Below are positions 9,789 through 34,841 of a stretch of 43,030 nt of DNA, piece by piece. Source of the DNA: Planctomycetota bacterium (GTDB taxonomy: Bacteria; Planctomycetota; UBA11346); the NCBI GenBank assembly GCA_007695355.1, contig REDX01000088.1, forward strand, positions 1 through 43,030, written 5' to 3'. The position numbers were made by a program, and so were the translations under genes. The notes beneath the pieces were generated by a model, which did no database searches, was not told the DNA's origin, and worked only from the letters and a program-made list of their open reading frames with translations. Position 1 is the first letter of the stretch. Each line of letters opens with the position of its first letter.

Positions 9789-11476
9789 GGGCGAGGATGA
9801 TCCCCATCTTCTTCGTCCCCCTCTTCGCCGTCTCCATCTCCGTCCCCTGGCAGATCTTCATCCATGGCCGCCCGGCGCAGGTCTTCGCTTGCGTCAGCCG
9901 TTTCGGCTTCTTGAGCCTCGGCAAGCCGGCGCTTCTTGGCCAAGGCCCGCCGATTTGCCCGCAATTTACGCAGGGGCTTTTTGTAATCATCAAGTCGGCG
10001 GCGATCTGCATCAATCATGCGCACTATAAAAATCAGCAAACTGGTAAAGACGATGAGAAATCCCACCTGCAAGAAGAGGGTGCTGATTTCCGTGCGTGGA
10101 GGTTCTGAGGAGAAGGAACCTGCAACGATAAACTTGAAATACACCGAGTCTGAAAGGGCGCGATCGGTATTGCGTAAACTCCCGCGATTGAAGACGAAAT
10201 CCTGGGTTACCTGTTGTCGCTGCACTTTTAAGAAGCGGCCGGTTGCGGATATCTGATCGCGGGGCTGCGGAAGTTCGACATCCGGCCCCACCACTATAGC
10301 AAGGTCGTACACTGCCGGTTGCGATGAAACCAAAGTATGGTCTCGGCCGTCGACTTGAATTACCCGCTCTTCGGGAACCAATGCCCACAGCCACATACGG
10401 ATAACCCGCTGCACACCAAATGGCCGATCCCGGGCCACCTCCCAGTCTTCCCAGGCACGCAGAACCTGCCCGCGCACGGTAACCGGATGCCCGCGGAAAT
10501 TTTCGGGCCCATGGTGCAGTTTCTGTTCATAGCGATTGGCATCAAGGGGATCATTATAAACGCCAGGTGTGGTGCGATCGGCGACGATCAGGCCCAAAAG
10601 ATAGTAGTAAGCCCGGCGTTCCAAGCGCAGAGACATATCATCAACATCGTCAAACACTGTCGGATCGAGGCGGAAGGGGCCTGTTCCAGGACGCTCGCCA
10701 ACGCCAAGACGCAGCAGCGAGGCCATATCAATGCCCGATCCCCCTTCGATCACCGTGCCGGTCTGGGCAGCCATGGTTGGGAGCAAAACCGTGGCACCCT
10801 CATCGTTGAGCACTGGCGTTGCCACCGTCCCCAGATAACGGCCCACCACATTGATCTCGGCGCCATAGGGAAGTTCGGCTGCCTGGCCGCTGGCAAGGAC
10901 TTGGAAATGCACCTGGGGAGCCGCCTCCACCAGCAGGCGCTGCCACTGCTCGACAACCTCCCCATCATTATCGGTAATTGCAAAGGGTAGAATCTCTACC
11001 ACTTGACCACTCATCGCCACCCGCGAACCGGCACGAATGCTAAACCCGGGATCCATGGCAATGCGGCCAATGTCACTAGGCCCCACCCGCATCGGGATGG
11101 GCTGCCGCGCCGCATCCCGTGTCAATTGCCGCTGCGCCCAACCAACCAACACCGGCAAGGGTTGCCCGAAAATCCGATCGGGCCGCTCTAAATACTCAGC
11201 AATGGCCACTTCCACCGCGCTTATATCAGACTGAGAAACACGGTTCTCAAGGGCCGCTAATTTCGGGTAGGGCATTTCCCGCAAGCCAATGGGATCGCCA
11301 AATTCCACCTCATCCTGCTGGCTCCAGGAATCCGGCCAAAAGCCGAAGAGGACAACGGCAAAGGCAAAAGCAATCATCATGACGAGAATCGTCTCGCGGC
11401 GCCCCATAAAGGGTCGCGGCACCTGATTGCGCGTCACCAGGCGGTCATCGGATGGCTGATGGGGATTAATCGGCAT
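9785..11476 (-). CDS. Membrane-anchored protein of unknown function (563 aa), two TM segments, charged C-terminal tail
   Basis: TM-like ILVMMIAFAFAVVLFGFW and LFLQVGFLIVFTSLLIFIVRM; 4-nt overlap with downstream gene. Confidence 0.7.
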   Translation of the reverse strand: MPINPHQPSDDRLVTRNQVPRPFMGRRETILVMMIAFAFAVVLFGFWPDSWSQQDEVEFGDPIGLREMPYPKLAALENRVSQSDISAVEVAIAEYLERPDRIFGQPLPVLVGWAQRQLTRDAARQPIPMRVGPSDIGRIAMDPGFSIRAGSRVAMSGQVVEILPFAITDNDGEVVEQWQRLLVEAAPQVHFQVLASGQAAELPYGAEINVVGRYLGTVATPVLNDEGATVLLPTMAAQTGTVIEGGSGIDMASLLRLGVGERPGTGPFRLDPTVFDDVDDMSLRLERRAYYYLLGLIVADRTTPGVYNDPLDANRYEQKLHHGPENFRGHPVTVRGQVLRAWEDWEVARDRPFGVQRVIRMWLWALVPEERVIQVDGRDHTLVSSQPAVYDLAIVVGPDVELPQPRDQISATGRFLKVQRQQVTQDFVFNRGSLRNTDRALSDSVYFKFIVAGSFSSEPPRTEISTLFLQVGFLIVFTSLLIFIVRMIDADRRRLDDYKKPLRKLRANRRALAKKRRLAEAQEAETADASEDLRRAAMDEDLPGDGDGDGEEGDEEDGDHPRP

Positions 11477-11787
11477 GGTGGCACTTTCAACGACTGCAAG
11501 CAGGGACCCAAAGCAAGGCCCTTTGAGTGCTGGGATGATATGGAATTTACGCTAGTGCCAACGCGCAAGCAGGGGCCCGGGTTCAGTGCACCGAACACCC
11601 GTCTCAGGCCTATCGAGTTGACAGACGATACTTTGACCCAAGCCTCCAATAGGATGGCGGGAATAGGCCGGGAATGGCCGGGCAAGCTGTAGCCGCAGAA
11701 AAGCAGGCCTGGAGCTAAGCGGGGATGAGAAACCTGCCCACGCTCAGCGCAGAGGCGAGAGATCCGGGCGGGGCAAAGCGTGCTGGG

Positions 11788-11820
11788 AAAAAGAATGCCC
11801 GCTTCACGGGGCATGCTTTT
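11788..11820. terminator. Bidirectional terminator-like hairpin
   Basis: AAAAAGAATGCCCGCTTCACGGGGCATGCTTTT: 6-bp ATGCCC/GGGCAT stem extended by AAAAG/CTTTT; T-rich run on the minus strand. Confidence 0.5.
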
Positions 11821-11948
11821 CGCTCAAAACACAGCCTTTCGGAGAATATTTGCTCGCCGATACAGACCCAGGGACAAGCTTTACGCCGCCCTGCAGACAA
11901 GCCCAGGTCCGAGCTTGCGTGGCTGAGATACAGCGATCATAATCAAGC

Positions 11949-12680
11949 ATGGCTTTTAAAGACTGGACCCGTTTTTTCCGGCGCAGCGAAACCGACCTGC
12001 AACCCCTGGCTTCTGATCAGGATGCAGCGGGGGCAGAGACGCCGCGCAGCAGCGCTGGCGAACCTGATCGCGAGCAGCAACTTTCCCGCACGGCCCTGAT
12101 GAAAGAGCTTGAACAGGGCTTCCATCAGGTGGGACGGGTGGTGGAACGGTTTGACGAACACCTCGGCACCACCAATCGACTGATGGAATCGGTGGCAGCA
12201 GAGCAAGAACGCTTGCCTGCCCTGATCACCGAACTCACCGCTGCCGCTTCAGCCAGTCGCCACGCCCATGAAGCGGTGGCGCAAACCCTGAGCAGTCGCG
12301 ATGAGGCCAATCAAAAGCTGCTGGCCCACCTCGGCACCCTCAGCGATAGCTTTGAACTAGAGCGAGACCAGCATCGCGCCCAGTTGGCTTTGGTCCTGCG
12401 ACTCCAGAGGGGAAGCCGGCGTGTACTGATTCTCCTGCTCCTTTTCTCGTTTCTCCTTATCAGCATTTTACTCATGCTGGTCCTCATCCTTGCCCTGCGT
12501 CCAGATCTCATTGGCAGCGATCGCATCGCTAACCCCTGGCTGACCTCCTCCAATGCGGCACAGGTCGAAGTTCAGCCCCTGAATTCTAGCATTCGCGCCG
12601 CCGCAATGAGCCCCGAACCGGCGATTCAGGCAACCGCCAAGGAACTACTCGAACAGACAAGCCCGGAAGCAGCAGAATAA
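11949..12680 (+). CDS. Membrane protein of unknown function with coiled coil and one TM helix
   Basis: VLILLLLFSFLLISILLMLVLILAL TM segment after a helical region. Confidence 0.65.
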   Translation: MAFKDWTRFFRRSETDLQPLASDQDAAGAETPRSSAGEPDREQQLSRTALMKELEQGFHQVGRVVERFDEHLGTTNRLMESVAAEQERLPALITELTAAASASRHAHEAVAQTLSSRDEANQKLLAHLGTLSDSFELERDQHRAQLALVLRLQRGSRRVLILLLLFSFLLISILLMLVLILALRPDLIGSDRIANPWLTSSNAAQVEVQPLNSSIRAAAMSPEPAIQATAKELLEQTSPEAAE

Positions 12681-34629: not shown

Positions 34630-34644
34630 CGCCTTGGTTCTATT

Positions 34645-34801
34645 TGGCCATCAAGGCGGCTCAAAGCTTTCCCCCGGGATCGCCGATCTCCTGATCGGCC
34701 AGCAAAAATGTCCTGAATTGGGCGCTTTTGTGCTAAAAGCATCCACCGCGAAGCGGCAATTCCTCACCCAAGGCGAGCTTTGAGCCGCCCTGATTTGGCC
34801 A
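34645..34801. other. Multi-helix inverted-repeat element: candidate structured RNA or small inverted-repeat element
   Basis: Arms 34645-34668 and 34776-34801 form about 23 bp including 14 perfect bp; internal hairpins at 34682-34699, 34724-34740, 34746-34756 and a GAATTG/CAATTC pair at 34715-34720/34757-34762. Confidence 0.65.
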
Positions 34802-34813
34802 TTTGGCGATCGG

Positions 34814-34841
34814 TTGCCTTGGCGCGAGTACGCCCTATAAA
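34814..34841 (+). promoter_or_regulatory. Possible sigma70-like promoter for tig
   Basis: TTGCCT (34814-34819), 16-bp spacer, TATAAA (34836-34841), upstream of the tig ATG. Confidence 0.4.

Follow-up and report, generated by a model that had tools for sequence, protein, structure and literature searches.

The structured sequence between the EIIA and trigger factor (tig) genes in the window, a 43,030-nucleotide contig of a Planctomycetota bacterium, is not a regulatory RNA of trigger factor but a dispersed non-coding MITE. With a probability of about 0.9, it represents a single copy of a MITE of 141-142 bp, which was inserted in the EIIA-tig gap and moved in trans by an ISAs1-family transposase. 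It is a MITE by all defining features that could be tested, and it is new in sequence. What had been a candidate novel RNA is now a mobile repeat identified with its boundaries, its duplication length and its likely mobiliser. The main value of the analysis is a newly described MITE family in a planctomycete genus.

Boundaries, copies and target-site duplications

The distance from the EIIA stop codon to the window copy is ~64 bp, and that from the copy to the start of tig is 134 bp. The element has no convincing coding capacity. All pairings named in the first-pass annotation are present in the sequence where it had placed them. The following features were observed in the window.

34642-34651, no strand: left target-site duplication, 10 bp, ATTTGGCCAT, identical to 34793-34802
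34652-34792, + strand: MITE, 141 bp, non-coding (profile match with E 3.1e-44; blastn matches in the host genome)
34652-34669, + strand: left TIR CAAGGCGGCTCAAAGCTT, family consensus CAGGGCGGCTCAAAGCTT (sequence and copy alignment)
34682-34699, + strand: hairpin H1, GCCGATC-TCCT-GATCGGC, 95.3% Watson-Crick cells in 82 copies
34702-34733, + strand: hairpin H2, A-tract, stem and T-tract, terminator-like on both strands in the consensus and weaker in the window copy
34746-34756, + strand: hairpin H3, CCGC-GAA-GCGG, 86.5% Watson-Crick cells in 82 copies
34763-34777, + strand: hairpin H4, CTCACC-CAA-GGCGAG, 78% Watson-Crick cells, altered in the B subfamily
34775-34792, + strand: right TIR GAGCTTTGAGCCGCCCTG (sequence, copy alignment and profile match)
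34793-34802, no strand: right target-site duplication, 10 bp, ATTTGGCCAT, identical to the left one
11764-11893, - strand: second MITE copy, decayed (profile match with E 6.2e-22)

The genome to which the window belongs (the host genome) is a 3.46-Mb draft assembly of 308 contigs, with 86% completeness and 5.8% contamination. At least 46 blastn matches were found in it, the full-length and main-group ones at 77-100% identity; this copy number is a lower bound, because only 40 of the 97 blastn candidates were scored. Many genomic copies had been named beforehand as the outcome that would favour a mobile repeat, and the blastn result falls on that side. A pattern search for the TIRs yielded 82 TIR-like sites, and the reversed pattern, used as a control, yielded none. 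The copy counts cover the fetched loci of the host genome and of one same-genus genome, G017. These loci contain 113 distinct copies, 85 of them full length (44 in the host genome and 41 in G017), which fall into subfamilies.

The family has an element length of 141-142 bp and TIRs of ~18 bp, of the CAGGGCGGCTCAAAGCTTG type. When copies are aligned together with their flanks, the similarity stops abruptly, at CAGGGCGG... on the left and at ...CCGCCCTG on the right. Of the TIR cells scored at 21 positions of the 82 copies, 83.6% are Watson-Crick. The duplication was analysed in the full-length copies with both flanks (n = 82) by comparing the k bases that adjoin the element on the left with the k bases that adjoin it on the right. 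The mean flank identity is 0.80 at k=10 and 0.27-0.32 at all other k in 6-13. The 10-bp flanks match at eight or more positions in 61 of the 82 copies and perfectly in 36 (shuffled flank pairs, 0.17%). Such a sharp 10-bp duplication is the footprint of a transposase that cuts the target with a 10-bp stagger.

These boundaries change the reading of two pairings. The letters of the outer TGGCCA/TGGCCA stem are present, but they belong to the direct repeat ATTTGGCCAT and lie outside the element. Since the TGGCCA part of the duplication is palindromic, the duplication had been taken for an outer stem, a warning that palindromic target-site duplications can mimic an extra stem. The GAATTG/CAATTC pair is present in the window copy but is peculiar, or nearly so, to it; elsewhere the left side is mostly GAATAG and the right side mostly GGATTC, GAATTC or AAATTC.

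Several variants were observed among the copies. The decayed copy in the window is situated between a gene ending at 11476 and a gene starting at 11949, and no 10-bp duplication is evident around it on inspection by eye. Head-to-tail pairs of MITEs in the same orientation, with spacers of 10-12 bp, occur at loci L013, L007, L006, L150 and L147. The spacer has the length of the target-site duplication, which suggests tandem duplication by recombination or slippage. A deletion derivative of ~64 bp (L060:1529-1596, contig C92 of the host genome) retains little beyond both TIRs and is flanked by the 10-bp duplications ACTAGCCAAC. An element with the same type of TIR, an H1-like hairpin GCCGAGT/ACTCGGC and a different interior (L045:1180-1321, contig C148 of the host genome) possibly represents a sister MITE family.

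Likely mobilising element

An IS with matching termini was found in G017 (L108:1004-2894, contig C217). It is 1891 bp long, with ends CAGGGCGACGCAAAGCTCG and CAGGGCCACTCAAAGCTCT, and contains a broken ISAs1-family transposase gene with the PF13808 and DDE_Tnp_1 domains. The scores are 55.3 bits for PF13808 (cut-off 32.3) and 101.5 bits for NCBIfam NF033564 (cut-off 70). This copy, the sole complete one of the IS, is frameshifted and shows no visible target-site duplication. Its TIRs are ~89-100% identical to the MITE TIRs over 15-19 bp, and the similarity between the MITE and the IS is confined to these 15-19 bp at the ends. The ends of the IS are CAGGG. According to the ISfinder description, members of the ISAs1 family have CAGGG-type ends and produce duplications of 8-10 bp; the papers searched did not mention this duplication length.

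Ends of this IS also occur in the host genome. At ten contig ends, the TIR runs into non-MITE sequence that is the same IS end as in G017, and the six ends that are long enough encode the last 21-22 residues as in the G017 transposase. As assemblies break at long multicopy repeats, these contig ends are most simply explained by a multicopy IS whose body is unassembled. A search of the host genome for PF13808 gave no matches, with only the IS ends assembled in this draft MAG; the negative result is probably due to the unassembled IS body. The one protein matched by PF01609 in the host genome was set aside: it is an unrelated DDE protein, and its contig lacks the MITE TIRs.

The link with ISAs1 is well supported but circumstantial, as it is drawn from TIR identity and duplication length. 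Under the proposed mechanism, the transposase of a co-resident ISAs1-family IS with the same TIRs would recognise the MITE ends and insert them at a target site cleaved with a stagger of 10 bp.

Other modes of mobilisation are less probable. An intact ISAs1 transposase was seen in neither MAG, and contig C105 of the host genome encodes a DDE_Tnp_1 protein without PF13808, so another DDE transposase, for example of the IS4 or IS1 type with 9-10 bp duplications, might have moved the MITE. However, the contig C105 has no such TIR, whereas the ISAs1-type element is bounded by the TIRs on either side and several copies of its end are present, which makes a different DDE transposase decidedly improbable. 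Short intergenic palindromes in many copies also include the REP/BIME and ERIC repeats, from which this element differs in the sharp 10-bp duplication and the IS-matching TIRs. Since it is small, palindromic, intergenic and multicopy, it could be considered a palindrome of the REP/BIME kind, dispersed by a RAYT or an IS200/IS605-type (HUH, TnpA_REP) transposase. It is established that IS200/IS605-type transposition leaves no target-site duplication; the sharp 10-bp duplication observed here, together with long TIRs that match a DDE element, makes such an origin hardly credible.

Genomic distribution and folding

Only one same-genus genome, G017, was available for comparison of the tig locus. 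It retains the EIIA-EIIA-tig gene order, and its EIIA pair is 71.8% identical in DNA sequence to that of the window. The EIIA-tig gap of G017 (176 bp) does not contain the element; in the window, this gap is 338 bp. The two gaps are too diverged to align, and thus the comparison demonstrates the absence of the element rather than an empty site at the level of individual bases. Copies are present elsewhere in G017, one of them upstream of the two EIIA genes at a distance of ~260 bp. No orthologous positions were found among the 44 host and 41 G017 copies. In three pairs of loci a flanking gene is common to both, but the element is on different sides or far apart. Such differences in position between the species lend indirect support to transposition.

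The element was not found in 21 genomes of the family outside the genus, save for one 21-bp match at the chance level, nor in plasmids. A 27-base core pattern was observed among the GTDB species genomes only in Planctomycetota bacterium GEM2.Bin36, and a scan of viral contigs did not find it. Among the genomes searched, the element is restricted to one genus.

The gene context was derived with a home-made codon-score gene finder and is approximate. Among the 71 copies with both neighbours, 45% fall between divergent genes, 45% between genes of the same direction and 10% between convergent genes; the expectation from intergenic bases is 48%, 40% and 12%, respectively. The copies have no preferred orientation (18 ++ versus 14 --). 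This context fits random intergenic insertion with loss of the insertions that break genes. The copy adjacent to tig is probably neutral. A sigma-70 consensus scan, which neither proves nor excludes a promoter, did not pick up the tig promoter proposed at 34814-34841.

The predicted fold of 167 nt has an energy of -81.4 kcal/mol on the + strand and -86.1 on the - strand, with z ~ -7 on both; none of 200 shuffled sequences is as stable. A fold on both strands is expected of a palindrome, and hence it is not by itself a sign of RNA. RNAalifold produced a poor consensus on the alignment of mixed subfamilies, and explicit stems were counted instead. The four inner palindromes recur in the 82 copies at the frequencies listed above for H1, the H3 core and H4, and at 91.8% Watson-Crick cells for the H2 arms. 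H4 and the base of the stem formed by the right TIR overlap, so that the two pairings are alternatives.

A few compensatory changes were observed, for example in H1 (GCCGATC/GATCGGC to GCCGCTC/GAGCGGC, two copies), between subfamilies (CCCT/AGGG to CCCC/GGGG) and in the innermost pair of H2 (T-A to C-G, nine copies); the H2 arms have three double changes. Compensatory changes can also arise without selection, by template-switch correction of imperfect palindromes. For this reason, and because the stem shuffle control ignores relatedness of the copies, the stem figures are no proof of selected RNA. The asymmetry of G-U and A-C pairs in the stems was considered as a strand signal; these changes are few and shared by lineages, and no claim about the strand is made.

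Hairpin H2 (GCAAAAA-stem-TTTTTGC) resembles an intrinsic terminator whichever strand is read. Its energy averages -13.7 kcal/mol, and it is stable in the majority of copies; substitutions and one deletion weaken it in the window copy. Transcripts that run through the element would fold into H1-H4, and H2 of intact copies may serve as a two-way intrinsic terminator, which would be a passenger property.

A stand-alone structured RNA, or a cis-regulator of EIIA or tig, conserved for a cellular function, would be consistent with strong folding on both strands and with inner hairpins that are kept in most copies and show some compensatory changes. This reading is most unlikely in view of the dozens of dispersed copies with target-site duplications, the lack of a copy before tig in the sister genome, the lack of detected positional orthologues and the equally good fold on both strands. 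A search of Rfam gave no match at the gathering level and nothing meaningful at E <= 1. The first-pass annotation had listed a stand-alone RNA, an element of the EIIA 3' UTR and a MITE-like palindrome; the former two are not supported, given the lack of conservation upstream of tig and of Rfam matches. The palindrome reading is supported by the copy number, the TIRs, the target-site duplications, the matching IS and the fact that the sister genome lacks the element at its tig locus. One possibility compatible with the identity of the element as a MITE, and competing on function only, is that it is kept as a portable terminator or insulator acting through H2 on both strands. This is suggested by the tract-stem-tract architecture of H2, its mean energy, its paired arms and their double changes. 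However, there is no enrichment in gaps where terminators are wanted, and H2 of the window copy is weakened, so this role seems rather improbable. In a broader formulation, the MITE would carry a selected RNA or DNA module, with the inner hairpins, H2 above all, kept by selection, so that insertions arrive insulated and transcription of the neighbours is unharmed; this is unlikely, although conceivable. The dispersed MITE with its strongly folded core and two-way terminator-like hairpin provides a testable case, in which a transposon may limit its own read-through.

Related elements

No description of an ISAs1-derived MITE was found in the open-licence literature. The closest described parallel is MITEAba12 of Acinetobacter, also a short non-coding element in many copies whose likeness to an IS is limited to the TIRs (PMC6382973). 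MITEAba12 is ~113 bp long and non-coding, is present in dozens of copies with 9-bp duplications, and resembles co-resident ISs only in the TIRs; its authors reported that its secondary structure is weak and that no terminator is predicted in it (PMC6382973). The sequence and the IS are unrelated to those described here, where the duplication is 10 bp and the fold is strong.

The structured MITEs of the cyanobacterium Anabaena sp. 90 are 77-541 bp long, mostly intergenic and have predicted secondary structure, and they could not be linked to the inverted repeats of any IS of that genome (PMC3542288). The size and the predicted structure are similar to those of the planctomycete element, whereas a TIR partner is identified for the latter.

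The IS found in G017 and the E. coli H-repeat ydcC, an ISAs1-family relative, both have CAGGG termini (in E. coli, CAGGGAAAGATCA and CAGGGCAAGATTA). Unlike an ISAs1-family IS, the MITE has no transposase gene, and it resembles the G017 IS only in the TIRs. In the G017 copy (L108:1425-2801, contig C217), the ISAs1 transposase domain has a DruA-like domain, PF14236, fused to it on the upstream side in the same frame. The name DruA otherwise comes from the Druantia defence system.
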